Origin: a virus
Direction: 5' to 3' (one strand)
DNA length: 22,975 nucleotides
IMG/VR virus record: IMGVR_UViG_3300042890_000054
Location: 1-22,975 of that record
Shown piece after piece: positions 1 to 22,791 of this stretch. The position numbers were made by a program, and so were the translations under genes. A model generated the notes under the pieces. The model did not search any database and was not told where the DNA came from. It was given only the letters and a program-made list of their open reading frames with translations. Numbering within the stretch: the stretch's first letter is position 1; each line of letters begins with the position of its first letter.

Positions 1-2401
1 TGCCATACGGACTTGTTGCGTTTGTGTTTCTAATCAAAACAATGTTTTGATCTTGCTGGTCACTACGCAATTCGTGATAAGCGGATGTGGAGCCTGCGTA
101 AGTACCCGTATTACTCGCCTTGAAGAAACCCCCGCTCGTGATGCGTGCGCGTTCGGTCGGAGTTGACCCTGTTCCAAAAACAATTACACCAGACGCATTT
201 TTTGCGTTAATCGTTGTTTGATTGCTGCTTTGGACGGTTAAGTTGCCGCCCATGCGGATTTGCGTATCCGTACCCGGCCCTTGAATCGTGCTTTCATCGG
301 TTGGCAAATAAATGGCAGGCTGCGTGGCGTTGCTTTGCGTAATAACAAGACGACCGCCAGTCGTGGTCGTGGCACCAAGCCCCAAATTCCCACTCGCATC
401 CAGCGTCATCGCCTGCGTGAACGTGATGGCGTTGCCTGCGGTGCCGGAAGGGGCGTTGAAGAAACGGTGTTCACCCGATCCTTGTTGATAAATAGTTGCT
501 GTGCCGTTGACGGCATATTTATTTTCGCTTGCGTAATAAACATTTGCGCCAAGCGCGATGTTGTTTGAACCAATGCCCCAAAGCGAATTGCCTGCATTAC
601 CAACTTCAATAGCCTTACCAAGATTCCACGCACTTGGCGTCACGCCCAAGCCGAAGTTAGTGCCATCAAATACCAGCCCCGCCCCACTCGTCGCCACCTT
701 GCTGCCGTTCAGATACAGCACGCCGTTGGCGGTGCCGCCGTTGAGCGTAAGGTTACCCGACAGCGTAGCCGTGCCTGCGTTAGCCGAGGCGATAGAGGCG
801 TTTGTAACAGTCAGCCCTGTGACGACCGCTGTGCCGACGTTAGCCGATGCGATAGAAGCCCCGGTTGCGGTCAAACTTGTCACCGTCGCTGTGGTGAGTA
901 GCGCCACACCCGCGTTCATGCTAGCAATAGAGGCGCTGGTTGCCGTGAGGTTCGTGATAACCGCCACGCCCGCGTTGATGGAGGCGATAGAGGCCGCCGT
1001 AAACTGAAGGTTGCCGATGTTGGCCGAGGCGATGGACGCACCCGTAGCATTCAGCGTCGTAACCGTCGCGTTGGTGAAAAGAGCCACCCCTGCGTTCATA
1101 GAGGCGACAGACGCGCCTGTAGCGGTCAAATTCGTGACAACCGCCACCCCAAGGTTAGCCGAGGCTACGGACGCCCCTGTGGCCGTCAGCGTCGTCACAG
1201 CAGCCACGCCTGCGTTCATGGAGGCAGCCGAGACGGTGGTGACGTTGACCTTGCCCGTGGCATCGTCAATGACCATAGACGCCGTGCCGTCCTTAGCCTT
1301 GATGTTGGTTACTTCAAGGTTGGTGAGGTCAAGCGTCGTGGTGTTGACGGTTGTGATGGTCGCCGTCGTAAAGACCGCAGACGCCGCCGAAACAGTCGTA
1401 AAGTTACCCACAGCCGGGGAAGATCCACCGATGGTGGTAGCGTCAATCGTGCCGCCGTTGATGTCGGCGGTGGTGGCCACAACGCTGTTAAGCGTGACCA
1501 CACCCGTAGAGTCGGCAATAGAGCCTGCGGCGGTACCGTCCTTGGCTTTTAGGTTAGTGACCTCAAGGTTGGTGCTATCCACCGTCGTGGCGTTGACCGT
1601 TGTGATGTTGCCGGTCGTTGCGGTCGCGGTCGTAAACGTACCCGCAGCCGCCGTGCCGCCGCCAATGGTCGTGCCGTCAATGGTGCCGCCGTTAATATCA
1701 GCGGTCGTGATCGTGCCGATGTCAGCCCACGTTCCCGTGACCGATACGTTGTTGGTCAGCGTCCAGCCGCTTGCTTGGAAGTTGACGGTATCCGCGCCGG
1801 CGTTACCGACCTGAAGGTTGCCGTTAAGGGTCGTGGCACCGGCTACGGTCAACGTGCCAGAGACGTTGAGGTTGGTGACGCTGTTGACCGCGCTAATCAA
1901 CTGAAAGCGCGTGCCGTCGTACACCACGGCGACCATTTCGCCAGAGGTGATGTCACCGGCAACAAGGGCGGTCGTGCCATCACGCGTGACGTTCTTTGCG
2001 CCGAGCGTGTCAATGTTGAGCGTGACTGCGCCTGTGTTGGTTGCGGGGGCGATGAAGTAGTACACCGCGCCTGTAACGTAAGTCGTTAAAGCCGGGGTCA
2101 GCGTACCGACGAGCGTATCCGTACCCGTTACCGTGACAAGGGCCGCGCCGTTGCTCTGAATCTGCGCAACCGTGGCGGCGTCAGTCGCTGCCGTGCCGGT
2201 GGCAAGGTTTGTGATCTTGAAGCCGCCCATCGGAATGTTGGCGGTCGGCGTCGTTTGTCCGTCTTTGGTGATACAGGTGGAAAGGCCGTTAGCAAGGTCA
2301 GCCGTCAACGCGTTAAACGTCGTGGCCGAGATGACGGTGTTAGCGACGACAGGCTGGCCTGCCGAGTTGATGACAAAAGTGCCTGACCCGTTGAAACTCA
2401 T
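1..2401 (-). CDS. Tail fibre / receptor-binding-type protein, partial (C-terminus beyond window)
   Basis: The frame is open from the ATG at 2401 to the window edge, giving 800 codons with no stop. The start overlaps the previous stop as ATGA and has AAAGGAG eight bases upstream. Residues 1-90 (MSFNGSGTFVINSAGQPV..., then TPTANIPMGGFKITNLATG) match an N-terminal module I know from many phage fibre-like proteins, probably the virion attachment end. Residues 234 to about 394 hold two copies of a roughly 78-residue module (ADINGGTID.TTIGG ... LEVTN.KAKDGTA). Residues 385-549 are pentapeptide-like repeats. After about residue 560 comes a fibre-shaft segment with GVTPSAWN and LDASGNLGLG motifs, often found ahead of receptor-binding tips. 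The protein presumably contacts the host surface. The missing end may carry the tip or an intramolecular chaperone, which cannot be seen here. Composition is very rich in Thr, Ala, Gly, Asn and Val. Confidence 0.85.
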   Translation of the reverse strand, partial: MSFNGSGTFVINSAGQPVVANTVISATTFNALTADLANGLSTCITKDGQTTPTANIPMGGFKITNLATGTAATDAATVAQIQSNGAALVTVTGTDTLVGTLTPALTTYVTGAVYYFIAPATNTGAVTLNIDTLGAKNVTRDGTTALVAGDITSGEMVAVVYDGTRFQLISAVNSVTNLNVSGTLTVAGATTLNGNLQVGNAGADTVNFQASGWTLTNNVSVTGTWADIGTITTADINGGTIDGTTIGGGTAAAGTFTTATATTGNITTVNATTVDSTNLEVTNLKAKDGTAAGSIADSTGVVTLNSVVATTADINGGTIDATTIGGSSPAVGNFTTVSAASAVFTTATITTVNTTTLDLTNLEVTNIKAKDGTASMVIDDATGKVNVTTVSAASMNAGVAAVTTLTATGASVASANLGVAVVTNLTATGASVASMNAGVALFTNATVTTLNATGASIASANIGNLQFTAASIASINAGVAVITNLTATSASIASMNAGVALLTTATVTSLTATGASIASANVGTAVVTGLTVTNASIASANAGTATLSGNLTLNGGTANGVLYLNGSKVATSGAGLVFDGTNFGLGVTPSAWNLGKAIEVGNAGNSLWGIGSNNIALGANVYYASENKYAVNGTATIYQQGSGEHRFFNAPSGTAGNAITFTQAMTLDASGNLGLGATTTTGGRLVITQSNATQPAIYLPTDESTIQGPGTDTQIRMGGNLTVQSSNQTTINAKNASGVIVFGTGSTPTERARITSGGFFKASNTGTYAGSTSAYHELRSDQQDQNIVLIRNTNATSPYG
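755..1249 (-). repeat. 33 pentapeptide-like units inside the fibre gene (residues 385-549)
   Basis: The encoded 165 residues divide into 33 successive five-residue units without a break. Recurrent units are ASVAS/ASIAS, MNAGV/ANLGV, AVVTN and LTATG. The first position is always A, L, M, I or V, and the third always A, V, I, L or F. Positions 2, 4 and 5 are mostly Thr, Ser, Asn or Gly. Higher-order blocks begin near bases 1212, 1152, 1092, 1017, 972, 912, 837 and 777. Their spacings are 60, 60, 75, 45, 60, 75 and 60 bases, all multiples of 15. Confidence 0.85.
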
Positions 2402-4041
2402 TTAAAATACTCCTTTGTCGTCGCAAAAAACGGCTTTTCTTCAGCCGCATATTGTGATGCACCCATGCGCAACACACGCGCTAAATCTTCCCGCTCTTGT
2501 GCCGATAATTTACGTCGGAACTGCCGTTCAAAATCTTGAATTTGGCGCTGTACATCCGTTTGGCCCGCCAACACTCGGCCTAACTTTCGGCCTTGATCGC
2601 TATATACAAATGCAGCCGGGACTGCCGTTGCATAACCGACAAGTTGGCTTGGTTGTTGTGCGCCAGTTACGGGCGTTCGGGGCGAAAACACATCTGCGGA
2701 TTCTGCAGCAATGTTTCTCATTCTGCCGCCGCCGCCAGCATACTGTCCTTTGCCACCTGCGCTTTGCCTTACCGCACCGGAAAATTGTTTTGGCGTAAAA
2801 GCCTCTGGCTGATCTATGGAGCGATAAACAGCATCTTCCAAAACTTTGAAATTGCCATATTTAGCGTCTACTGCGCGTAACGCTTTCATGGCGTCAGGCG
2901 GCAACTGCGACTCTAATATCTCTGTCGCCTTTTTCTCTGAAGTTTTTAGCAGTTTTTCTGCGTCAGGGAAACTTTGATTTCCTGACATATCGCGCAATTT
3001 TGCGCGAATGTTTGATCTAATTTCTAGCAAATCTCCGCTGGTTAATTGCCGGCCCTTAACTCGGCTTAACTCGGTATCAATAAAGTTTTGCACATACCGA
3101 CGCGACTTAACGTCAGCAGCCGCTTGGCGAGGGATTGCCATGGCTTGCGACAGCGGCACATCTCCGCCTTCAACCCGCATTAAAACTGGTTGCAATGGGT
3201 AATTTTTAAATTGACCATATGCTTCGTTATATGCGTCCTTTAAATCGTTGTATGTATCGCGCACATCTGCGCGAGACGGAGGCGTATACCCCGGCGGTGC
3301 CGCTTCCTTGCCAATCAATTCTTGTGTTTGTTGCCACCCGCGTTGTCTTGCCGCGACAACCTTGGGTCGGATGAACGGAATGTTCATCATAGATTCTTCA
3401 ATCATTGCCCAAGTGCTGTCAGGAGCCATTTGGCCGGGCGACAATTCAACGCCTTTTGCTGTCAACCGACGAGCAGCCGGCGACATATCAATGCCGTGCG
3501 TTAAACCACGCAAGGCTTGACCTCCTTTTGTTAGGCCGCCTCCTGCCAATGCACCATAAGCACCCTCTGTGCGACGGTCTTGCGGATCGGCTGTTGCATA
3601 AGTTGTCACGCCGCTTTCTATTGCGCTGCGCATTGCGGGGCCGCCCATACGCAATGCACGACCTACAGGGCCGCCCATTAGTGACGTTGCGGCTGTTTCG
3701 CCCACAAACTGCCCTGCCGATCCTTCTGGCCCTTGCGTAAACGGTTCGTTTTGCTCTTGGGTTTGCTGATAACGCTCTGGCGACACCAAGCCCAACAATT
3801 CGCCAAGGCTTGAAACGCTCCGCTCAACGCCAGCGCCTACGCCCATCAATGCACGCACCAATGGGTTGACCTCACCGCCGACAGTGCCGGTTTTAGGGTC
3901 AAACATACGCGCTTGCGGTGTGGACGAGACGGGAGCAGGGGCTTGGGCAGAGTGAGTCATTGCCTCCACATTTTGGCGGCCCTGTTCCTCGGCAAAACGC
4001 CTTTTGAAGCGTTCAATTTCCTCTAGAGAGTAATCTTCCAT
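2398..4041 (-). CDS. Probable internal virion / ejection-type structural protein (547 aa)
   Basis: I do not recognise a named family with certainty. The start is taken at 4041 because AAGGAGG lies just upstream and the ATG forms TAATG with the preceding stop; a longer frame beginning at 4068 has no such support. The N-terminus (MEDYSLEEIERFKRRFAEEQ) is charged and helical, followed by a Gln/Pro linker. Residues 70-200 are rich in Gly and Ala (GGPVGRALRMGGPAMRSAI), and a segment LTAKGVELSPGQM ... SMMNIPFIRP follows at about 195-235. The segment from SPGQM onward resembles one I know from internal or injected proteins of environmental podoviruses. The C-terminal 250 residues are mostly helical and charged. 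Its place between a similar helical protein and the fibre fits a virion component released or used at DNA entry, which is inference. The stop overlaps the fibre start (ATGA). Confidence 0.72.
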   Translation of the reverse strand: MEDYSLEEIERFKRRFAEEQGRQNVEAMTHSAQAPAPVSSTPQARMFDPKTGTVGGEVNPLVRALMGVGAGVERSVSSLGELLGLVSPERYQQTQEQNEPFTQGPEGSAGQFVGETAATSLMGGPVGRALRMGGPAMRSAIESGVTTYATADPQDRRTEGAYGALAGGGLTKGGQALRGLTHGIDMSPAARRLTAKGVELSPGQMAPDSTWAMIEESMMNIPFIRPKVVAARQRGWQQTQELIGKEAAPPGYTPPSRADVRDTYNDLKDAYNEAYGQFKNYPLQPVLMRVEGGDVPLSQAMAIPRQAAADVKSRRYVQNFIDTELSRVKGRQLTSGDLLEIRSNIRAKLRDMSGNQSFPDAEKLLKTSEKKATEILESQLPPDAMKALRAVDAKYGNFKVLEDAVYRSIDQPEAFTPKQFSGAVRQSAGGKGQYAGGGGRMRNIAAESADVFSPRTPVTGAQQPSQLVGYATAVPAAFVYSDQGRKLGRVLAGQTDVQRQIQDFERQFRRKLSAQEREDLARVLRMGASQYAAEEKPFFATTKEYFK

Positions 4042-5333
4042 TACAAACCTCCTTGGTTGCGCTTCCATCGCTGATAGCGCACTTCTTCGTCATCAATCTT
4101 TTTGTAAGGAATCTTGGAGTCTTTGTAAGTTGAGTAATAGTCATCAATCAGCGAATCGTATTCATCAATTACGTCAAGTTGCTTGTTGCGAATGATATTT
4201 CCGATAGCAACACGCGCTTGAGGACTGTTGACAATTTGCGGGAACATTCTTTCCAAAATTGCAGTTTCTTCTTTTGTAAACCCACGCGCACCGCCCAAAG
4301 CGGCTTGAGTAGACAGAACCAAATCACTGACCTGCGCAGAAAACGCCTCAGTGTTTTTCAATGTCTCTGGATCAACTTTAATTCCAAGGCTGTTTAAGAA
4401 TTGCCCTGCTCCAACCGCTCCTGTAGCCAAAGCGCCGGTGTAAGTTCCTTTCTGCGTCAACCGATCAAGATTGTTGACTGATTTAATAATGTTTTTGGCA
4501 GCATTAGCCCGTGGACGCATTGTGCCAATGTCTCCCAAAAAGATTTTTTGTGCTTCCGCATCACCCTTTGCTCCAAGATCAATGCGTACTGGTGCAGATT
4601 GCGTTGTTTCTTTAGAAATTGCCGCATCATATGTTGCGCGCAACGGACTGTTTAGCGGCAATGCCTCGCGTTCTGCAATCAATTTGCTTAACGAACTGCC
4701 CGCCGCCGGTTTTGGTGACGCCGTTACAGGCTTGCCATCCATCATTACAGGCGTAGCCATGCCATCGCTAATGTTAAACAACTGATCGCCAAACTCCATC
4801 GTCTGAGTTTTTGGCTCTTGCGCTGCCATAACTTGCGCAAGACGCTGCGCCGTCGGCGTTCCGGTTGCGGCGTAATTTGCAAAGATGTTTTGACGTTCTT
4901 TTGCAGTCGGGCCAACCATCTCTGTGCGCATAGGCGCTTGCTGCGGTGCGCCATATGTTACGTCGCCTTCCGCACCGACTTGCGGCATACCAACGCTGGC
5001 CGCAATTTCAGCGGTTGTCGGGGCAGCAACACGCGCTTGCGGTGCCAATTCCTGACGCAGCCGCTCTGCACCTGCAATATCGGCTTCGGCTGCCTTTTGC
5101 TCGGCTTCCTCTGCCTTCTCCAACGCCTTTTTAGAGCCGTAGGCTTGCAGCATCTTGGTCAGCGCGGTCAGCGGCGACGGCATGGCCCGAATACCCTGAT
5201 AGGTAAACGGCTCCTCCTCTGCTAAGGCTTGCTGTTGCAGCAGTTCGGCGTAACGGCGCTGCTGCTCTGCGCGGCGTCGTTCTTGATCGTAGGGTGATGG
5301 AGGCTTGAATGCCTCGTACGATTTAATTGCCAT
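4041..5333 (-). CDS. Probable internal virion structural protein, helical (430 aa)
   Basis: The function is not recognised for certain. The start is the ATG at 5333, with AGGGG a few bases upstream and an 11-base overlap with the previous gene. Residues 1-110 are strongly helical and charged (YDQERRRAEQQRRYAELLQQ, then EKAEEAEQKAAEADIAGAE), a probable coiled coil. A Pro/Thr-rich linker follows to about residue 215. The C-terminal half has a helical domain with LSKLIAEREALPLNSPLR and a segment NLDRLTQKGTYTGALATGAV ... GIKVDPETLKNTEAFSAQV. I associate this C-terminal pattern with virion proteins of environmental podoviruses lying next to the fibre gene. No enzymatic motif is visible. It ends with the Shine-Dalgarno sequence of the next gene inside its own last codons (AACCAAGGAGGTTTGTAATG), so the two genes are translationally coupled. 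Confidence 0.72.
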   Translation of the reverse strand: MAIKSYEAFKPPSPYDQERRRAEQQRRYAELLQQQALAEEEPFTYQGIRAMPSPLTALTKMLQAYGSKKALEKAEEAEQKAAEADIAGAERLRQELAPQARVAAPTTAEIAASVGMPQVGAEGDVTYGAPQQAPMRTEMVGPTAKERQNIFANYAATGTPTAQRLAQVMAAQEPKTQTMEFGDQLFNISDGMATPVMMDGKPVTASPKPAAGSSLSKLIAEREALPLNSPLRATYDAAISKETTQSAPVRIDLGAKGDAEAQKIFLGDIGTMRPRANAAKNIIKSVNNLDRLTQKGTYTGALATGAVGAGQFLNSLGIKVDPETLKNTEAFSAQVSDLVLSTQAALGGARGFTKEETAILERMFPQIVNSPQARVAIGNIIRNKQLDVIDEYDSLIDDYYSTYKDSKIPYKKIDDEEVRYQRWKRNQGGL

Positions 5334-5721
5334 CAAAGTCCCCTCGGTAGGTGCCTCCCTGCGGCGTCGTCATGCCGGGGGAGGACGGATACCCGCGTGC
5401 GCCTGCACCTTGCGGACGCTTCATGCCGCCCACTTGCGGTGCGCCTTGTTGCGGCGGTGCCATGGCACTCATTGCGGGGTTGCTGATCGGGCCGGTGTAC
5501 TGCGCTGGGCCACGCGGGCCGTTAAAGTTCATGTTCTGCGGTGCAACGCCGGGGGCTGAGTTTGGCGTAGCCCCTGCGTAAGCAAGCGATGGCTGCTGCG
5601 GCTGACGCGGCGTCATGCCGTCAAGCGATGCGTTGCGTTCCTGCATCGCCAACATACGCGCCAACTCTTGTGGGCGACGGTCAGGCTGCATCGGCATATT
5701 CATTGGGCGTCGTCCGTTCAT
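5323..5721 (-). CDS. Small Pro/Gln/Met-rich virion-region protein (132 aa)
   Basis: The start at 5721 has AGAGGTGG a few bases upstream. The N-terminal 45 residues are basic and helical (QPDRRPQELARMLAMQERN). The rest is low-complexity Pro, Gly, Gln and Ala with Tyr and Asn (PGVAPQNMNFNGPRGPAQYT, then KRPQGAGARGYPSSP), probably disordered. No family was recognised. It sits 12 bases after the 1201-residue repeat protein and overlaps the next gene, so it is likely a co-translated partner or linker of the internal or tail complex. It is a real gene by spacing, ribosome binding site and position, but its function is unknown. Confidence 0.68.
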   Translation of the reverse strand: MNGRRPMNMPMQPDRRPQELARMLAMQERNASLDGMTPRQPQQPSLAYAGATPNSAPGVAPQNMNFNGPRGPAQYTGPISNPAMSAMAPPQQGAPQVGGMKRPQGAGARGYPSSPGMTTPQGGTYRGDFDGN

Positions 5722-5733
5722 TAGCCACCTCTG

Positions 5734-8700
5734 TTAAAATAAACCACTTAAAAATCCACCGCTCGGTGCGCCTGCGACTGCGCCTGCCAACCCATATAGA
5801 CCTGACATACCGCTTGCGGCTTGGTTTGCAGCAATACCGTAACGCTGGATATTTGCGGCATCTTGCGCCTGCATGGCTTGTAGATACGGTGTTGGTGCAA
5901 CCGTGACGCCGCTGTAGCCTTGGAACTGCGGCATCTGTACCTGCGATCCCGAGAGCAACGCAGAGATTTCGTTGAGCGGCTGATTGCGTAGTGCAACCTG
6001 CTGCTGCAACGCTTGCTGGATGGCTTGGTTGCCGAACGTGCCTGCACCCATCGCTTGGTTGTACTGCTGCTGTTGCGCGGCATTTGCGGCGGCTTGCTGC
6101 GTAAGTGCGGCCTGCTGGTTCTGCAAAATCGCGGCGTTCTGCAAGCCACGAATGTCCATGCCCTGACCAAAGCGTTGCTGCTGTGCAGCGTTGGCGGCGG
6201 CTTGTTCGGCCATCGCACGCTGGTATGCCTGTGCCTGTGCTTCGTTGAAGAATCCAGCCTGCGCACCGGCTTGCTGGAAGCCCTGCTGCTGACGCGCCAA
6301 ATTGGCTTGATAAGCGGCCAATGCTTGTTGCTGGTTCTGTGCAACGGCTTGGTTCGCAAACTGTCCAAGGCCCATCTGCTGCGCGTAACGCTGCTGCTGG
6401 GCTTGCATGGCGGCTTGTTGCTGCTGCAACGCGGCCTGTTGGTTTTGACCCAAGGCTTGATTGCGCAGTTCCTGTGCCGTGACTTGCTGGCCAAACGCAC
6501 CTTGCGCTGCTTGGTTCTGCATCTGCGCAGCGGCTTGAGCCTGCGCAAAGTTCTGCGCCATGGCTTGATTTTGTGCCTGCTGGGCTTGTTGCCCCATGCC
6601 AAACTGTGCAAGTAACGCCTGACGGTTAAACTCTCCTGCGCCAACCGCTTGACCATAACGCTGCTGTTGCGCTTGGTTTTGCATCTGCTGCAACGCCAAC
6701 GCTTGCTGGTAGTTTTGCTGGGCGGCTTGGTTCTGCGCTTGTGTCGCCTGCTGTCCCGTTTGGAACGTCGCAAGTTGTGCCTCTCGGCCAAACTCGCCTG
6801 CGGCCACACGTTGCAAGAAATTCTGTTGTTGTGCGGCGTTGCCCATCTGCGCAGCCGCAAGGGCTTGCTGATAGTTTTGCGCTTGTGCTTGGTTTGCAGC
6901 CTGCTGCGCCTGTTGACCCATCGCAAACTGCTGGCCGGTCAATTGTGCGCCAAGTTCTGCTTGGGTCGCGGCTTGACCAAACTGTTGCGCTTGCGCGGCA
7001 CGTTGGGCTTCCTCGGTCGCCAATGCACCCTGCAAGTTTTGCTGCACCGCTTGGTTTTGCAACTGCTGTGAGGCTTGACCTTGTGCAAAGTTCTGAGCAA
7101 TGGCGCGGTTGATCGCCTCTTGTGCCGCTTGACCCGTCTGGAAAGAAGCCAATTGTGCTTCTTGTCCAAACTCTCCAGCGGCGAGACGTTGTGCAAAGTC
7201 TTGTGCCTGCGCTTGGTTTGCAAACTGACCTGACTGCAACGCCAATTGCGTGTTTTGCGCAATTGCTGCGTTCTGCGCTTGCTGTGCTGTTTGTTGCGTC
7301 TCAAATCCTGCCAGCGCACCCTCACGGCCAAACTGCTGCGCGGCCATTTCTTGCCCAAAACCTTGTGCTTGTGCGGCGTTTTGCGCTTGTTGGGCAGCCA
7401 ACGCACGCTCAAAGTTCTGCTGTTGCGCTTGGTTGACCGCTTGTTGTGCCTGTTGGCCCATACCAAAGGACGCCATCTGCGCTTCACGGCCAAACTGACC
7501 CGCCTGTAGGCGCTGCTGGAATGCCTGCTGTTGCGCCATGTTCTGCGCAGACTGTGCGGCAAGCGACTGCTGGAAGTTTTGCGCGAGGGCTTCGTTGTAG
7601 AGTCCCAAGCCTTGTGCGCCTGCTCCAAACTGCGCGAGTGCGGCTTGGTTGGCAAAGTCGGCAAGGGTCTGTTGTTCGGCAAGTCCCTGCTGACGCATGG
7701 AGGCGTCTAGGCTGATGCCTTGCAATGCCGCTTGCGTGCGCAAATCGTTTTCACGTTGCGCTTGCAGTTCCATCTCTGCGTTGTACGCCTCACCGCCCGG
7801 TCGCAAGCCTTGGTTGACAAGGCGCTGCTCCAACTGCGCACGTTCACGCTGCAATTGCGGCTCAAGGCGCGACATGATGGCGTTTTGCGCCGTCATTCCC
7901 GCGTTGACTGGCATGGCGGCAAGCCCTTGCGTTGCCAACTGCCGTTGAAGTTCTGGTGTTGCTAACTCACCGCGTGCGTAGCCAAATCGGCCCTCTTGCA
8001 CGTTGCGGGCAACATCGCCGACGCCTGAAAGGTTAAGGTTTTCTTCTAGTGACGGTGCGGCAGGGCCACCGATGGCACGACCAAACTGATCGGCTGACGG
8101 GCCACCTGCGATTTCACCGAGGCGTGAGGTATCAAACCCGCCAAGATTCAACCCTGCGGGGCCGCCTTGTGCTTGACCAAACTGCCCAACGCCGCCTTGT
8201 ACGCCTTGCATTCCTGCAAGGTTAAGGCCGCCAAACTGCACGCCCGCTGGGCCAGCACCGGCCATGCCGTACAGGCCCGCAGCAGGGCCGCCACCGGCCA
8301 TTCCAAACTGACCGTAGCCAACGCCGGGGCCAATCTGCCCAACGCGTGAGAAGTCGGCTCCTTGGACATTCGGGGCATTGGGGCCAGCGCCTGCGGCGTA
8401 CTGACCGAGATTGCCAAATCCTTGTGCGGTGCCAAGCCCCGAAAGGTCTAGGCCACCAAACTGCACGCCGCCGGGGCCGGCTTGTGCCATGCCGTACTGA
8501 CCCATAGCGGGGCCACCGCCGACACCGCCGACGCCTGAGAGGTCAAGTTGACCGAGGTTGTACGCGGCTGGCCCACCGCCTGCCATACCAAACTGGCCGC
8601 CCGAGGGGCCGCCTGTAAAACCTGTCAGTGCGACATTACCGCCCGCCTGACCCATGCCAGTAAGGTCGGGAGCCTGCGCAACGTCACCAAACGCGCCGAT

Positions 8701-9339
8701 GCCTTGTTGCGCCTGCCCAACAGGTGCATACATTCCCGGCATGGTTTCGGCAGTAAAGGTTGAGCGAGGGCCATACTGCGCCGCGCTAGGTGCGCCTGAT
8801 ACCGCGCCAAATTCCCCCGCACCGGGTGCGCCAGCCGTGCCGTAACCAGCAAGGTTGGGTGCGCCTGCGACCTGTCCGTACTGACCAAGTTGGGTCTGGA
8901 TGGCAGGAAGTTGGGCGGCAAAGTTTTGGTTAAGAAACGACGACAGGTCGCCGATTTCACGCAGTCCCAAATTTGCCATCGCCTGTTCGGCTTGCTGCTG
9001 CGTGCCAAAAATGTCTTTGGCAGGGCCAACCAACTCCTGTCGGATGGTCGGTTGCTCAACGTAAGTCGTGAATTGCGCAATATCAGGTGCTGCTCCTGAC
9101 GCCATATCAGGATCACGCAGCACGTTGGCTTGATAATCAGCCATTGCTTGGTCATACGCAGCCTGATTGATTTGCGGCGTGCGCTGCCACGTTACCGTCT
9201 GCTGCGCCGTAGGCGTGTAGACGTTGGGATTGGACATATAAGCCGACTGACGAGCGGCTTCTATGTTCTCCTGACCTTGCTGCCGCGCAATGGCGGCGTA
9301 ATCAGGTGTTGGCGGCGGTGCTGGTGATCTTTTGCCCAT
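5734..9339 (-). CDS. Giant repeat-rich virion protein (1201 aa), candidate ejection or tail-associated protein
   Basis: The start at 9339 has GGAG seven bases upstream and overlaps the acetyltransferase gene by 38 bases. Five regions are visible. Residues 1-155 begin MGKRSPAPPPTPDYAAIARQ and contain EQPTIRQELVGPAKDIF, an N-terminal style I know from environmental podoviruses. Residues about 155-440 are Gly-rich with irregular repeats (MAGAGPAGVQFGGLNLAG). Residues about 465-586 are helical with VNQGLRPGGEAYNAEMELQ, a motif recurrent in phage structural proteins. Residues 587-1090 are Gln/Ala-rich 54-residue repeats. Residues 1091-1201 continue the helix and end in a Gly-rich hydrophobic tail (LYGLAGAVAGAPSGGFLSGLF, written here in part). 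No catalytic motif is seen. Position and size recall the T7 gp14-gp16 or P22 ejection proteins, but I see no direct homology. A fibrous tail protein is the alternative. Confidence 0.85.
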   Translation of the reverse strand: MGKRSPAPPPTPDYAAIARQQGQENIEAARQSAYMSNPNVYTPTAQQTVTWQRTPQINQAAYDQAMADYQANVLRDPDMASGAAPDIAQFTTYVEQPTIRQELVGPAKDIFGTQQQAEQAMANLGLREIGDLSSFLNQNFAAQLPAIQTQLGQYGQVAGAPNLAGYGTAGAPGAGEFGAVSGAPSAAQYGPRSTFTAETMPGMYAPVGQAQQGIGAFGDVAQAPDLTGMGQAGGNVALTGFTGGPSGGQFGMAGGGPAAYNLGQLDLSGVGGVGGGPAMGQYGMAQAGPGGVQFGGLDLSGLGTAQGFGNLGQYAAGAGPNAPNVQGADFSRVGQIGPGVGYGQFGMAGGGPAAGLYGMAGAGPAGVQFGGLNLAGMQGVQGGVGQFGQAQGGPAGLNLGGFDTSRLGEIAGGPSADQFGRAIGGPAAPSLEENLNLSGVGDVARNVQEGRFGYARGELATPELQRQLATQGLAAMPVNAGMTAQNAIMSRLEPQLQRERAQLEQRLVNQGLRPGGEAYNAEMELQAQRENDLRTQAALQGISLDASMRQQGLAEQQTLADFANQAALAQFGAGAQGLGLYNEALAQNFQQSLAAQSAQNMAQQQAFQQRLQAGQFGREAQMASFGMGQQAQQAVNQAQQQNFERALAAQQAQNAAQAQGFGQEMAAQQFGREGALAGFETQQTAQQAQNAAIAQNTQLALQSGQFANQAQAQDFAQRLAAGEFGQEAQLASFQTGQAAQEAINRAIAQNFAQGQASQQLQNQAVQQNLQGALATEEAQRAAQAQQFGQAATQAELGAQLTGQQFAMGQQAQQAANQAQAQNYQQALAAAQMGNAAQQQNFLQRVAAGEFGREAQLATFQTGQQATQAQNQAAQQNYQQALALQQMQNQAQQQRYGQAVGAGEFNRQALLAQFGMGQQAQQAQNQAMAQNFAQAQAAAQMQNQAAQGAFGQQVTAQELRNQALGQNQQAALQQQQAAMQAQQQRYAQQMGLGQFANQAVAQNQQQALAAYQANLARQQQGFQQAGAQAGFFNEAQAQAYQRAMAEQAAANAAQQQRFGQGMDIRGLQNAAILQNQQAALTQQAAANAAQQQQYNQAMGAGTFGNQAIQQALQQQVALRNQPLNEISALLSGSQVQMPQFQGYSGVTVAPTPYLQAMQAQDAANIQRYGIAANQAASGMSGLYGLAGAVAGAPSGGFLSGLF
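6070..7581 (-). repeat. Tandem 54-residue (162-base) repeats, each three 18-residue units
   Basis: These encode residues 587-1090 of the 1201-residue protein. Units begin at residues 587, 641, 695, 749, 821, 875, 929, 983 and 1037, typically with QNF, QNY or QRY. Eight units are 54 residues and one is 72, longer by exactly 18. The consensus is roughly QNFQQALAAQQMQNQAQQ, then QxFxQRLAAGEFGREAQL, then ASFGMGQQAQQAQNQAxx. Eighteen residues equal five turns of alpha helix, so the block should form a long regular helical rod or coiled coil. Confidence 0.85.
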
Positions 9340-9745
9340 ACCGAGGCTCCAAATAACGACACTTTTCAGGTGTCTGAGTCATAAATACGATGTCCCCGGC
9401 GTCGTGCGCGGCCTGTTTGATCCGCGCCTCCTCCGAAAACCCCATTTTTGTGACCAGTTTCAGCGCCCGGGTATGGTTACTGCTGATTGGCCCTATTATC
9501 TTATCAACTCCGCAGACGTTGTACGCATAATCGTAGACGGCGGCGACGTAGGCAGGGGTTACGCGGTTCCAAGCAATGTGGCAAACGACCGATTTGCCGT
9601 TCCACATCTCGTAAACCGTACCGGCGACAATCTGACCGTCCTTTTTAAGTCCGATGGCCGTTGCCCGCTCGGGCCAAAATGACCCGTCGGTTTGCGCCGT
9701 TACCCAATGGCCGATTTCCGGCCCGCTGACTATATTCCAGCCCAT
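9302..9745 (-). CDS. GNAT-family N-acetyltransferase, phage type (147 aa)
   Basis: The fold is suggested by a strand pattern (ATAIGLKKDGQIVAGTVYEM) and by the C-terminal hallmark PISSNHTRALKLVTKMGFSE. In GNAT enzymes this Asn-x-x-Ala-x-x-Leu-x-x-x-Gly-Phe segment forms the acceptor-side helix before the last strand. These enzymes move an acetyl group from acetyl-CoA to an amine, but the substrate here is unknown. The classical R/QxxGxG/A pyrophosphate loop is not clear, so cofactor binding needs proof. I chose the ATG at 9745; an in-frame ATG at 9778 would add 11 residues but has no Shine-Dalgarno sequence. The gene overlaps the gp10-like gene by 16 bases and the giant repeat gene by 38. Such enzymes occur beside tail genes in other phages, so a virion or host-protein target is possible. 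Confidence 0.78.
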   Translation of the reverse strand: MGWNIVSGPEIGHWVTAQTDGSFWPERATAIGLKKDGQIVAGTVYEMWNGKSVVCHIAWNRVTPAYVAAVYDYAYNVCGVDKIIGPISSNHTRALKLVTKMGFSEEARIKQAAHDAGDIVFMTQTPEKCRYLEPRYGQKITSTAANT

Positions 9746-11295
9746 CCGATTTGATACACAACGTCTGTTGATGCCCATTGAATCTGCAAATTCTTACTGC
9801 TACTCGTGAACGAAATGGCTCCCGAGTAACCGAGTCCTGTCACGCCAGATTGGTTGTTCGTGATGACGACATCAGAACCCCATAGCGCAACATCCCATAA
9901 ACCAACATTCCACAATCCTGCGGTTGTTGGCGAAAACGACAACGCACCCGTCTGGTCAACCGTCTGAAAGTCGGTGTTGATACCGATAACAATGGCAGGC
10001 TGCCCGTTGCTAAAGATGCTCGGTCGTGCGCGGGTAAAGTATTTGATGACGCCACGCGTCTCAAAGTAGTTAAATGCTTGCAGCGCCTTGGTCGGGATCG
10101 GCTCACCGTCATCGGCATAGCCACCGTCACCCGTTGTCCACGCCTTTGCAACGTAGGTGTTGCCGCCAAAGTACGGTTCATTGCCGACCAACGCCCACGA
10201 CGACGCATTCCACCCAGTAAAGTTGCACCACGCCTTGGTGATGTTGTTCATCACAAACTGCTGCTGGCCGGTGCTGACGGGAACATTGACGATCAGCGCG
10301 TTGTTGAGCGGGTTATAAAGCAACGCCCACCCAAAGGTGTCCTTGTAGGTGCGTGCGGCAGCAGCAAAAGCACCCTGTATCTTGTCGGACAGCGCGATGT
10401 TGGGGTCTAACCGCGACGACTGTAGCGCCGAGGCGAACGGAATTAGCCCGTCCAGCGTCAAAATGAGCAAATCACCGCCGTATTTTGTCACGCAACGGCG
10501 CGAAATCGGCGAACCGATGATCCACACGCCGATCAATGCCCAAGTGGATGCGCTGGTCGGGTCAGTGCCGCGATATACCGCAACCTCGCCCTTATCGCTC
10601 ACCAAAACAAGGTTATCGTCAACGCCGTAGCCTGCGTCAATCGTCCATGTAGCCATCGCGGTCAGTTTGCCGCCGAGGTGCATAACGCTTGAGAGGTCTA
10701 GCACGTTGGCTGCACCACCTACTGATGCAACCGGCAAATACCACGCTTTAAGCGTGTTTTTCTCAATAAACCACATCCGATTCTTGAAAAGCGTGGGGCT
10801 TTCAAGGCTCGTTGTGGTAACGCCTGTGATGGCAGGCGAACTTGTGCCGTCAATTGGTGTCCAAGTCGTGCCGTTGTAGAGCAACGGCTTGTCCACACCG
10901 TTCGCGGCATACAAATAACTACCGCCGCCCGTGGTGACGTTGGTGTACTCCCATGCAGAGTTGGAGAGACTCGCAACCAACGCTGACCCGGCGCTACCTG
11001 CCGACGTTACGTCAAAAATCTTGCCGTCGCTGATCGCAAACAGTTTGATCGTGCTGCCTGCGTTGTACGTCATCAGCGTATCAACAGTTCCCGGCAGCCC
11101 CGTCTTGTGCTTCGTGTAACCACCTCGCAAATTGACGTTGGATACGCTTGGAAACATATTTTCCAAGTACACAGCGTCCGTTGGGGCCATGTTTGCCAGC
11201 GCATCGCGTGCGTTCCAGCCGCCGACAGGGGCGGGCAACGACGCCACGTTGGCCGTCGTGCGCTGAACAAGCCGTCTGCGAACCGGCGAGGCCAT
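9730..11295 (-). CDS. Tail hub / packaged-DNA stabilisation protein, P22 gp10-like (521 aa)
   Basis: The N-terminal signature PAPVGGWNARDALANM ... DAVYLENMFPS ... NLRGGYTKH is typical of a widespread podoviral tail protein. I place it by family resemblance with P22 gp10, the stabilisation protein that plugs the tail channel after packaging (about 470 residues in P22). The body is dense in beta strand with repeated aromatic and Gly turns (SYLYAANGVDKPLLYNGTTW, KNRMWFIEKNTLKAWYLP). This suits a propeller or beta-barrel hub. The C-terminus carries GLWNVGLWDVALWG, an aromatic repeat often seen in the family. It is preceded directly by the adaptor gene with a TAATG overlap, the same neighbour relation as P22 gp4-gp10. 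The gp10 label is by analogy; the T7 gp12-like nozzle is the alternative name for this position. Confidence 0.78.
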   Translation of the reverse strand: MASPVRRRLVQRTTANVASLPAPVGGWNARDALANMAPTDAVYLENMFPSVSNVNLRGGYTKHKTGLPGTVDTLMTYNAGSTIKLFAISDGKIFDVTSAGSAGSALVASLSNSAWEYTNVTTGGGSYLYAANGVDKPLLYNGTTWTPIDGTSSPAITGVTTTSLESPTLFKNRMWFIEKNTLKAWYLPVASVGGAANVLDLSSVMHLGGKLTAMATWTIDAGYGVDDNLVLVSDKGEVAVYRGTDPTSASTWALIGVWIIGSPISRRCVTKYGGDLLILTLDGLIPFASALQSSRLDPNIALSDKIQGAFAAAARTYKDTFGWALLYNPLNNALIVNVPVSTGQQQFVMNNITKAWCNFTGWNASSWALVGNEPYFGGNTYVAKAWTTGDGGYADDGEPIPTKALQAFNYFETRGVIKYFTRARPSIFSNGQPAIVIGINTDFQTVDQTGALSFSPTTAGLWNVGLWDVALWGSDVVITNNQSGVTGLGYSGAISFTSSSKNLQIQWASTDVVYQIGWAGI

Positions 11296-14379: not shown

Positions 14380-14861
14380 TAGGCGCCCGAGTACCCAACA
14401 ACGTGCGGGAAGCCCGCAACGCAGGTAATCGCCGTGGCACCCGACGCGGTTGCCGTGGCAACGATACCGGCCACAAGGCCGACACCGCCACCCGACACCG
14501 TGGCGTCATCCAGAACGCCAGCCGTCGCCGTCGTAAAGAGCGGGACAGCCGGGTTGCAGGACGCCGCAAGGTTGACGCGCATCACGCCACCCGATTGCAC
14601 CCAGCCAAAGGAGCCAGAGGCAATAGAGACTTGCGCGACCGCAAACCGCTTGGAGTCGGCAGCGTTGGTCGTCGTCACCGGCACAGCCTTGTTGTCGGCA
14701 CGGACAGACACGGCGGCGTACTGCGAGACGGTAGAGGCCGCCTGCACGTAAATCGCCTGTCCACCGTCGTCAAGGTTGACGCAGGTGCCGAGGTTGAACT
14801 GCTGCGTGGTGTCGGCATAGCCAAGGGCAACGCCAATGACATTACTAGTTGAAACAGTCAT
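14379..14861 (-). CDS. Capsid decoration / head stabilising protein (160 aa)
   Basis: It lies directly after the major capsid gene, 13 bases downstream, with AAGGAG about nine bases before its ATG. The sequence is small, beta-rich and Cys-poor, with Ala, Val, Thr and Gly dominant. The end has PLFTTATAGVLDDATVSGGG and GIVATATASGATAI, a pattern I know from decoration proteins of similar phages (moderate family resemblance, no enzyme motif). It probably binds the outside of the capsid lattice and stabilises the expanded head. The TAATG overlap couples it to the MAF/DUF115 gene. Confidence 0.75.
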   Translation of the reverse strand: MTVSTSNVIGVALGYADTTQQFNLGTCVNLDDGGQAIYVQAASTVSQYAAVSVRADNKAVPVTTTNAADSKRFAVAQVSIASGSFGWVQSGGVMRVNLAASCNPAVPLFTTATAGVLDDATVSGGGVGLVAGIVATATASGATAITCVAGFPHVVGYSGA

Positions 14862-14874
14862 TTTCGTTTACTCC

Positions 14875-15900
14875 TTAAGCAATCAACACGCCTTGGAACT
14901 GGCTGCCCGAGCAGGTGAGGTTACCGGCCCAGCCAATCAGTTTCACAATGGCGTCTTGGTTGACGGCCTGACGCTCACCGCCAATCGGCACAAAGTTGCG
15001 ATCTTTGTGCGGGCGGAACATCAGGTACTTGGTGTTGAGGAACCACATATGGTTTGCGTTGCCCGAACCGCTGTTGTACGTGGACGATCCGATACCACCG
15101 TCCAACACAACGTCGGAGGCCATACCAGCGCCATAATACTTCAACGAGGCAAAGCCCGCTCCGGCGAGGCCCGAACCACTCTCCGTAATACGCTGGATCG
15201 CTTGCAGCGATTGCAGGTAGAAGCGGTAGTAGTTGTTGTCGGCCACGATGAGGTCAGGCTTGTCGGTTCCACGAACGAGTTGCACGGCAAGCGCATCCAT
15301 GTAGCCTTGAATCGTCGTGCTGGACACAGCGCCCGCACCACCGCCATCAGCGGCAGCCGAGAACTTCTTGCTCTGCCAGAACGACCACACAGCGCGGTTG
15401 ATGCCGCCGTAGGTGCCAACAGTCGGGTCATCCGGCACAGCCGCAGCAAGGCCCGTGAGGTTCTTGCCGGCGTTTCCGGTGCCGTCGCCGTACAGGTCGC
15501 CCGAGATGCGGTTAGCAAGTTGGGCTTCCGCGACTTCCATGCGACCGTCAAGAAGGTCAATGATGGCCTCCTTGCCCGAGTTCTGGATCATCTCCAGACC
15601 CGAAATGGTCACAGCCGAGGCGTACTGCGTGATGCTGAACTGCGCCGCAGAAATCGGCGAGTTCTGGCCCACGTTCAGCACTTCATAGCCGCTGTACGAG
15701 TTGGTGTTGTTCGTGGTCGGATCGGTGTACATGATTTCTTGCAAAATCACGTTACCGCCCGAGAACGTCTTGACGTTCCCACGCTCCTTCAGACGACGAA
15801 GCAACGCGTTGTTGTTCGTCACGTTATCAGCAAGTTCACCGCTACGGCTCTGAATCGTGGTAGCAATGATGTCGCTGATACTAGAGTTGGCAAATGCCAT
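14875..15900 (-). CDS. Major capsid protein, HK97-type fold expected (341 aa)
   Basis: The N-terminus (FANSSISDIIATTIQSRSGE, LADNVTNNNALLRRLKERGN) and the following SGGNVILQEIMY, SGYEVLNVGQ and ISGLEMIQNSGKEAIIDLLD match a large family annotated as phage major capsid protein. Further landmarks are GLAAAVPDDPTVGTYGGINR, VWSFWQSKKF, KPDLIVADNNYYRFYLQSLQ and the C-terminal PIGGERQAVNQDAIVKLIGW. The HK97 fold is inferred from family, not visible directly. It forms the icosahedral shell with the scaffold encoded just upstream. The gene has free gaps on both sides (23 and 13 bases) and GGAG before the ATG. This suits high, independent translation of the most abundant virion protein. No cleavable pro-region is obvious. 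Confidence 0.93.
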   Translation of the reverse strand: MAFANSSISDIIATTIQSRSGELADNVTNNNALLRRLKERGNVKTFSGGNVILQEIMYTDPTTNNTNSYSGYEVLNVGQNSPISAAQFSITQYASAVTISGLEMIQNSGKEAIIDLLDGRMEVAEAQLANRISGDLYGDGTGNAGKNLTGLAAAVPDDPTVGTYGGINRAVWSFWQSKKFSAAADGGGAGAVSSTTIQGYMDALAVQLVRGTDKPDLIVADNNYYRFYLQSLQAIQRITESGSGLAGAGFASLKYYGAGMASDVVLDGGIGSSTYNSGSGNANHMWFLNTKYLMFRPHKDRNFVPIGGERQAVNQDAIVKLIGWAGNLTCSGSQFQGVLIA

Positions 15901-15923
15901 TTGATGTCTCCTAGTTCAGTTAA

Positions 15924-16955
15924 TTACAAACGCGCTTCTTGTTCGGTCAATGCTTCTTCAAGAAGTGCGCGACGGTTTGCTGCCTTGGGAGCCGTGTTTA
16001 CGCCGGGTGTGGCGCTTCTGACACTCACCGCTGCTGCACGGGCAACTTTCGCCGCCCGGTTGGCCTCTTTGGCCTGTTTAGCCGCTTCCTCGGCCTGTCG
16101 GGCCTTGGTCACTTGGTCAAACAAATTGGGGGTGAGGCGTATGGCTTTTTCATACGCGTCTTGCAACGTCTCGGCGAGTCCACCCTGTAGGAGTTGGATC
16201 ATCACCGGGCGTGCTTCCTCAAAATACTCAACCTTTTGACTAAAACTGTTAATTTCGGTCAACAAGTTCTGGTTTTCGGCCATTTCCTGCTGCTGTTTCC
16301 AGCCCATGACCTCACCACGTACCTTGTTGAGTTCATTTTGCAGTTGGTAAACGAGCGGATCAACAGCGCGTTGCGCTTGCTGACCCGGCTGCTGCGTCAT
16401 GGAACCCAAATTGATGCCATACGACTGCGCCAACTGCGTGAAATACTGCATTTTCGTCTGCGGGTCGCTATTCCGCAGCATATGGTCGGCCTGCATCAAC
16501 GCAGACACGGCCTTGTCGGGCGTAATGCCTAACCCTTGGATGGTTTGCATATACGGCTCAATGGCCGCTTGCATGGAATCCGCAAATTCAGCCTTGCCAA
16601 AAATGTTTTCCACACCCTTGCGCATTTCTTCTTCACGCTTCCACGCGTATTCCTGCAATTTTGGGTCGGCTTTCTGCCAAATTTCGTGATATTCACGACG
16701 CCATGAGGCGGGCGGGCGTTTCCACACCGGATCGTTGTCGTACAGTGTGTTAAACGACGACTTTTCTTCCGTATTTTCGGGTTCCGGTTGTTGTGGTGCC
16801 GCTTCTTGCTTGCTGAACCGCCCTGCCGCATCGCGTACGACGGTTTCTACGGGTTCGCCCTTCTCGGCGGCCTCAAACCCTGCTTCTAACAACTCACGAC
16901 GGTCAATCTCTTGATCTTCCCGTGCCGCAACCATTGCTGGATTAGTGTTGTCCAT
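15924..16955 (-). CDS. Scaffolding protein (343 aa)
   Basis: Position between portal and major capsid, an acidic Gln/Glu-rich N-terminus and a predicted helical body identify it. Residues 40-75 are a linker of low complexity (AAPQQPEPENTEEKSSF). A segment with DPVWKRPPASWRREYHEIWQ and LQEYAWKREEEMRKGVE follows. I associate both with scaffold proteins of related podoviruses. The middle has QLQNELNKVRGEVMGWKQQQ, a coiled coil. The end is basic (RAAKVARAAAVSVRSATPGV, then ANRRALLEEAL), as expected for the coat-binding helix of scaffolds. It guides prohead assembly and leaves before DNA entry. The start at 16955 has AGGAG six bases upstream and overlaps the previous stop as TAATG. Confidence 0.86.
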   Translation of the reverse strand: MDNTNPAMVAAREDQEIDRRELLEAGFEAAEKGEPVETVVRDAAGRFSKQEAAPQQPEPENTEEKSSFNTLYDNDPVWKRPPASWRREYHEIWQKADPKLQEYAWKREEEMRKGVENIFGKAEFADSMQAAIEPYMQTIQGLGITPDKAVSALMQADHMLRNSDPQTKMQYFTQLAQSYGINLGSMTQQPGQQAQRAVDPLVYQLQNELNKVRGEVMGWKQQQEMAENQNLLTEINSFSQKVEYFEEARPVMIQLLQGGLAETLQDAYEKAIRLTPNLFDQVTKARQAEEAAKQAKEANRAAKVARAAAVSVRSATPGVNTAPKAANRRALLEEALTEQEARL

Positions 16956-21759: not shown

Positions 21760-22791
21760 TTATTTTCTCTGATCCCACAATTCGTGAATTGGAACGTCAT
21801 ATGATTCCAACGGAAATTTTTGCCGTCTCTGTTTTTCAGAGAGCGTCCGACGCGCAGCAGCCGCCCGAGCCTCTGCCTCTCCCATTGTCCTTGCATATCG
21901 CCCATACCCACTAAAAGGGCGAACTAAAGCAAAAGCCTTATCAACTAACGCTGACCTTTCCTCACCGGGCGGCAATTTTTGCCACTGCTGTTCCAATCGG
22001 TCATATCGTTTTTGAATGTTTGAAGGCACCGGCAAATCAGGCAGAGCGTGTGACCCCGGCGCAAATTTTTCCGTGTTTTGAACCAAATGCTGCAATTCAT
22101 GAACAAAAGTATCTTTGGTGTCGCCTTTTAACAAACCTTTACCAACATGGATATATTCTGGAAAAGGCAATGGCGATGCCGAACCACCTTCGTAATCTTC
22201 GCCTTTAAAAACCATTGTCCGTTTTGCCTCGGGGTATGATTCCGTTAATTTTTTGTGGGTTACGACATTTGGCAATCTCCGGTATTTTCCTTCTGGCAAT
22301 GCAAAAAATTTGTTCTCGTCTTTAAATTGCATTTCCTTATCACTAATTTCTTGGCGTAGTTGGCCATCTGGCGCTCGGAATGTTCCTGTTTCGCGCCATA
22401 TTTCCTCCGGCGCTATCCCAGCCTTTTCTAATTCTTCCGCTCGTTTGGCAGAGGCGGCATCCCATGTCTTTGCAGACTTGCCGATAAAAATTTTCTGCAC
22501 TGTCGGGTCGTAACCCTTTAGCGCACCAATTAGCCTACCGACCGGCACAACAGAAGCCGCCGCCATTGCCATACCGGCCTCATCGTCGGCCCGTCTTGCG
22601 CGTTCAAAATCACGGGCGGCAAGGGCTTGCCCAACCCCCGGCACAAGGCTCCCGCCCATCTCCAGCGCCGTGTCTATGGCGTCGGCGTCCTGCGGCTGGT
22701 CTAGGCTGACCATGCGTTCGTAGCGGCGTTTTAGGTCGGCCTTGTCGCCAAGGTAACGGAGGGCGGCTGCGACCTGCTCCTTCCGTGGCAT
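21760..22791 (-). CDS. Predicted zinc metallopeptidase-domain phage protein (HELQH; 343 aa)
   Basis: The key motif is FVHELQHLVQNTEKFAPGS, with HELQH at 231-235. About 70 residues later comes MGEAEARAAAARRTLSEKQR (303-322), where a Glu could be the third zinc ligand. In phage large polyvalent protein-associated domains, an (S/D)-T-(L/F)-x-HE-(I/L)-QH-x-(I/V)-Q motif followed by GE-x-EAR is known as a predicted peptidase core, and I match it on that basis. Residues 101-150 (IFIGKSAKTWDAASAKRAEE, GIAPEEIWRETGTFRAPDG) form another segment I know from such proteins. Residues 40-92 are Ala/Gly-rich and hydrophobic. The activity is predicted, not shown. It could act on virion proteins or on the host. 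The start forms TAATG with the gene before; a GGAG lies 12 bases upstream. Confidence 0.82.
   Translation of the reverse strand: MPRKEQVAAALRYLGDKADLKRRYERMVSLDQPQDADAIDTALEMGGSLVPGVGQALAARDFERARRADDEAGMAMAAASVVPVGRLIGALKGYDPTVQKIFIGKSAKTWDAASAKRAEELEKAGIAPEEIWRETGTFRAPDGQLRQEISDKEMQFKDENKFFALPEGKYRRLPNVVTHKKLTESYPEAKRTMVFKGEDYEGGSASPLPFPEYIHVGKGLLKGDTKDTFVHELQHLVQNTEKFAPGSHALPDLPVPSNIQKRYDRLEQQWQKLPPGEERSALVDKAFALVRPFSGYGRYARTMGEAEARAAAARRTLSEKQRRQKFPLESYDVPIHELWDQRK

Follow-up and report, generated by a model that had tools for sequence, protein, structure and literature searches.

A tail-fibre gene in a 22,975-nucleotide viral sequence (positions 1–22,975 of IMG/VR record IMGVR_UViG_3300042890_000054; hereafter the window) encodes 33 unbroken five-residue units. 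We consider it probable that this array forms a homotrimeric shaft of the triple-β-helix type in a phage tail fibre, built from an unusually strict five-residue unit and carrying exchangeable tips. The array itself is a real, selected five-residue register; despite its pentapeptide look, a three-chain shaft is the most likely structure because the end of the fibre bears a chaperone known for three-chain fibres. The fibre gene and its surroundings are laid out as follows.

2–2401, minus strand: tail-fibre open reading frame, 800 residues in the window, starting at 2401 and running off the end of the record
1931–2401, minus strand: N-terminal region, residues 1–157, matching phrog_13989 (virion structural; E = 1.3e-16), probably the virion anchor
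1583–1747, minus strand: relaxed register, residues 219–273, 11 units (VSVTG, TWADI, GTITT, ADING, GTIDG, TTIGG and so on), exceeding shuffles
1295–1399, minus strand: seven relaxed units, residues ~335–369, alone within chance
755–1249, minus strand: main shaft, residues 385–549, 33 strict units, marked by its register, a dN/dS of ~0.19 and whole-unit gaps
2–754, minus strand: post-shaft tip, residues 550–800, incomplete, with an S74 chaperone (residues 847–904) past the window end
2398–4068, minus strand: gene directly upstream of the fibre, DNA ejection protein family phrog_26400 (E = 1e-7)

A second contig, IMGVR_UViG_3300042294_000223, is identical to window positions 1–7401 (7,401 bp) and encodes the complete fibre of 969 residues, with matches in its C-terminal part to several tail fiber families of PHROG (the best at 1.8e-28). 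Other genes in the window encode a terminase, portal, major head protein and amidase, together with tail and virion structural proteins. An acyl-CoA N-acyltransferase-like gene (9302–9778, minus strand; phrog_4470, 3.1e-27) is flanked by the lysis amidase and a large gene for a virion structural protein, and it overlaps each of them. A 343-residue frame (21760–22791, minus strand) matches the middle of the very long phrog_13543 (positions 1177–1313 of 1879). A 467-residue plus-strand frame (14836–16239) with no family match runs opposite the gene for the major head protein (14875–15900, minus strand; phrog_9953, 7.9e-106) and is probably not a gene. The plus strand opposite the shaft (1011–1814) is open for 267 codons and has a likewise repetitive translation, probably a by-product of the repeat.

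The array keeps a strict five-residue register

The pattern [AVILMF]x[AVILMF]xx holds in all 33 units, with non-polar residues at position 1 in 33/33 and at position 3 in 33/33; the first-pass annotation had counted 66 non-polar first and third positions, and 66/66 is what we found. Positions 2, 4 and 5 are non-polar in 6/33, 8/33 and 6/33 units. Given the composition of the array (86 non-polar among 165 residues), the chance of two given phases being wholly non-polar is ~10^-27.8, and the longest strict run in 2,000 shuffles of the fibre protein was 8 consecutive units. Upstream, the 11 relaxed units at residues 219–273 compare with a maximum of 9 in 1,000 shuffles of residues 191–384; the seven at residues 335–369, divided from the main array by the loop-like stretch KDGTASMVIDDATGK, do not by themselves go beyond shuffles of that same region.

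We collected relatives by two scans of viral contigs in IMG/VR, which yielded more than 100 loci and 81 distinct strict runs of 10–43 units each. In a register-wise alignment of 26 sequences, all aligned residue pairs were in the same phase; the gaps, some of them counted repeatedly because relatives inherited them together, comprised 92 of 5 residues, 3 of 10 and one of 2, and never one of 20. The earlier proposal that insertions and deletions keep the five-residue register therefore stands, and the register is a conserved family trait. The dN/dS value given above was obtained among these relatives, whose synonymous sites are near saturation. A tblastn search of the shaft against named phages gave no match, which says little because the BLAST low-complexity filter may mask the shaft; a single bacterial-genome match (L162, a Planctomycetota MAG) was set aside, there being no comparable fibre there.

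Spacings between AS[VIAL][AST]S blocks in all relatives were 15 (99 times), 20 (201 times) and 25 residues (227 times). All three spacings in the first-pass annotation were thus seen, and 602 of 625 were multiples of 5. The 20-residue spacing, to which special meaning had been given as one quadrilateral coil, is not set apart from the rest, since 25 is the commonest and no four-unit coil stands out.

The fibre ends in an S74 chaperone and its tips are exchangeable

The Peptidase_S74 intramolecular chaperone is a hallmark of homotrimeric fibres with intertwined chains. The 969-residue fibre ends in such a domain (PF13884, residues 847–904), which scored 28.5 bits in locus L081 and, in the twin contig, 33.9 bits (the cut-off is 22). 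Among 49 tails of shaft-bearing relatives, 19 matched Peptidase_S74 (best 9.8e-18), and about half of the relatives have other C-termini without an S74 match. We found 21 distinct SD-x-[RK]-x-K sites in the relatives, with Ser followed by Lys at +5; in the 969-residue fibre the predicted cleavage pair is Ser847 and Lys852. The S74 domains of T5 pb1 and its relatives trimerise, guide folding and self-cleave via a Ser-Lys pair, which in T5 pb1 is Ser1264 and Lys1269 (PMC4690869). In T5 pb1 and endoNF an adjacent chain supplies an Arg at -14, which is accessory and not universal; the 969-residue fibre lacks it, having Ser833 there instead and an Arg at -8. In MyRF cleavage no stalk residue participates (PMC8326128).

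Tips at the shaft end are exchangeable among relatives: locus L082 shares 96% DNA identity with the window over the shaft and the upstream gene, but not over the tip. Several further shaft-bearing loci (L030, L038, L056, L071 and similar ones) have quite different short tips, in which a run of glycines precedes a terminal AFAWFIS and the SD-x-[RK]-x-K site is missing.

Resemblance to pentapeptide-repeat proteins is partial

A different arrangement, which we regard as unlikely, would place three separate right-handed quadrilateral solenoids of the pentapeptide type side by side in the trimer, one per chain, much as solenoids lie side by side in the trimers of P22-like tailspikes. No tail fibre known to us has a shaft made of pentapeptide-type solenoids; if true, this would be a natural rod, its length determined by how many five-residue units it contains. 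The register itself speaks for it, and the only solved structures matched by sequence were pentapeptide proteins, weakly (best 3.1e-4 with a single sequence and 3.6e-7 with a profile). PF13599 was touched by 13 of 40 relatives (best 1.5e-5); a trace of these weak matches survived in-register shuffling and none survived full shuffling, so that they derive from the register and nothing else. The window protein had no Pfam pentapeptide match at the curated cut-off, and when relatives were scored directly against PF13599 the best reached 19.7 bits, where the cut-off is 38. Pfam matches to bPH_5, Phage_T4_gp19 and FNG were disregarded as chance.

The unit itself departs further. In the pentapeptide-repeat consensus the centre residue is Leu or Phe (PMC8145042). 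Of the 33 units in the window array, 11 have Ala at position 3, 10 have Val, 7 have Ile and just 5 have Leu or Phe; the canonical A(D/N)(L/F)xx is thus mostly missing. Across the family, the centre is Leu or Phe in 15% of 3,125 units versus 98% in 12 pentapeptide proteins, the latter figure being somewhat flattering because their stretches were picked with a score that favours Leu and Phe. Inverted units, with a large residue at position 1 and Ala, Gly or Ser at position 3, make up 15% of the family and 0% of the pentapeptide proteins, and charged residues account for 3% and 17%, respectively. Where the pentapeptide family calls for at least eight contiguous repeats in one register the array has 33, but a Leu/Phe centre is scarce and the curated profile score is not attained. 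A comparison of core volume over windows of 2–6 units, intended to separate three- from four-sided coils, was dropped as non-diagnostic since true pentapeptide proteins likewise lack four-unit compensation.

Single-unit gaps also weigh against separate solenoids, as the part of a chain beyond each gap would be turned by 90 degrees, which would disrupt the side-by-side packing. Structure prediction gave no confident monomer solenoid: an AlphaFold2 monomer model of residues 330–600 had a mean pLDDT of 57.4 and was almost free of strands, and a second had a pLDDT of 52.9 and a pTM of 0.48, with short intra-chain strands on most units. Foldseek found no significant match for the AlphaFold2 models, the first match of the second being the pentapeptide protein MfpA (E = 0.088). 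Because AlphaFold2 gives repeats confident but false β-solenoids (PMC11795689), low confidence disfavours a simple monomer solenoid; it would be expected if hydrogen bonds run between chains, and thin alignments could do likewise. The near absence of strands from the first model would also be compatible with bonds of that kind.

Set beside the pentapeptide-repeat proteins (PF00805, PF13599; MfpA, Qnr, All3740), the shaft is alike in its five-residue period, its apparently inward positions 1 and 3, its Ala-rich position 1 and its frequent Asn at position 2; it is unlike them in its Ile/Val/Ala centre with inverted units, its near lack of charge, its score below the Pfam cut-off and its place in a fibre that bears a trimerising chaperone. 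The reading of the shaft as a PENTAPEPTIDE protein is therefore only partly supported: its sequence is closer to pentapeptide-repeat proteins than to any other solved structure, but the quadrilateral solenoid that had been proposed is not supported.

A triangular solenoid whose coils each take up 15 residues of a single chain, present once or three times in a fibre, appears very improbable. Spruce budworm antifreeze protein is a left-handed triangular solenoid with 15 residues per coil, and to our knowledge such a solenoid has no precedent in a fibre. Five residues per face would also suit a three-sided coil, the 15-residue spacing does occur, and TxT pairs are present in the LTATG and ATVTN units; spacings of 20 and 25 are, however, commoner than 15, and Foldseek returned no significant match to such a fold. 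Least credible of all is a low-complexity threonine/alanine linker without a defined fold, its repeat kept by recombination, which the low AlphaFold2 confidence and low charge would suit but which is at odds with the dN/dS value at near-saturated synonymous sites and with copies of a 60-base repeat that are only 67% alike in DNA, all 66 core positions having been retained as the DNA diverged.

A putative three-chain architecture

The triangular trimeric β-helix, which the first-pass annotation had kept as the main alternative, is now the better reading given the Peptidase_S74 chaperone. Besides that domain and its Ser-Lys pair, several features suggest a trimer: the spacing of two hydrophobic residues one residue apart (h-x-h) appears to match the MyRF stalk, the gaps are mostly of single units and never of 20 residues, no four-unit spacing is preferred, and the tip has been swapped in L082. 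Within a unit, a larger side chain at residue 1 tends to go with a smaller one at residue 3 and vice versa (r = -0.47 for unique unit types), and the value drops to only -0.22 with a looser unit definition.

In the trimer that we infer, each five-residue unit would form one short β-strand and a turn, with residues 1 and 3 directed inward to a hydrophobic core that the chains share, and residues 2, 4 and 5 outward. Three chains would intertwine around one axis, and a layer, on a plan modelled on the triple β-helix stalks that adjoin S74 chaperones, would consist of one unit per chain and hold six core residues. The C-terminal S74 domains would trimerise first, through their coiled-coil end, keep the chains in register while shaft and tip fold, and then self-cleave at Ser847. 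One added unit would rotate every chain by one face of the three-fold rod; because each chain turns by the same face, symmetry would be kept after a single-unit insertion or deletion, which may be why whole-unit changes are tolerated singly. As such changes would alter length only, the shaft would be free to vary while tips swap at its end, serving as a spacer towards a receptor-binding tip.

Several observations count against this trimer. Among solved trimeric shafts we found none built on a strict five-residue unit, and sequence searches lead to pentapeptide proteins, not to fibres. The six known trimeric fibres examined below lack the register, and the MyRF stalk uses six residues. The second, weak AlphaFold2 model places intra-chain strands on most units. 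The missing Arg at -14, the relatives without S74 and the weaker volume compensation with looser units fall on the same side.

Comparison with known fibres

In T4 gp34 (C-terminal part), gp36 and gp37, T5 pb1, K1F endosialidase and phi29 gp12, the longest strict run is 2–4 units against the 33 here, so a register this strict is out of the ordinary among known trimeric fibres. Our literature search, with most subscription journals outside its reach, turned up no description of a fibre shaft with a five-residue unit. T5 pb1, K1F endosialidase and phi29 gp12, S74 fibres or spikes with triple β-helices, otherwise resemble this fibre in having a virion-anchor-like N-terminus, a shaft, a tip and a C-terminal S74 domain with a Ser-Lys cleavage pair.

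The MyRF stalk adjoins an S74-type domain and has the shape of a triangular prism; each of its layers contains six core residues, every strand contributing two that lie one residue apart (PMC8326128). The shaft shares this h-x-h spacing and differs in that MyRF has six-residue repeats and the array strict five; its unit may suit the MyRF plan if each strand and its turn are together one residue shorter. Strands that are short and carry two core residues each, along with small turn residues, would be common to the shaft, T4 gp34 and the MyRF stalk. T4 gp34 has no clear sequence motif, according to its authors, in contrast to the strictly regular unit here. A pentapeptide-like register in a virion protein, then, need not mean a pentapeptide solenoid. 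Triple β-helix shafts usually have no readable sequence code, whereas this fibre family appears to have one, five residues per strand with two in the core, in natural variants of 10–43 strict units through which fibre length, stability and symmetry could be studied unit by unit.
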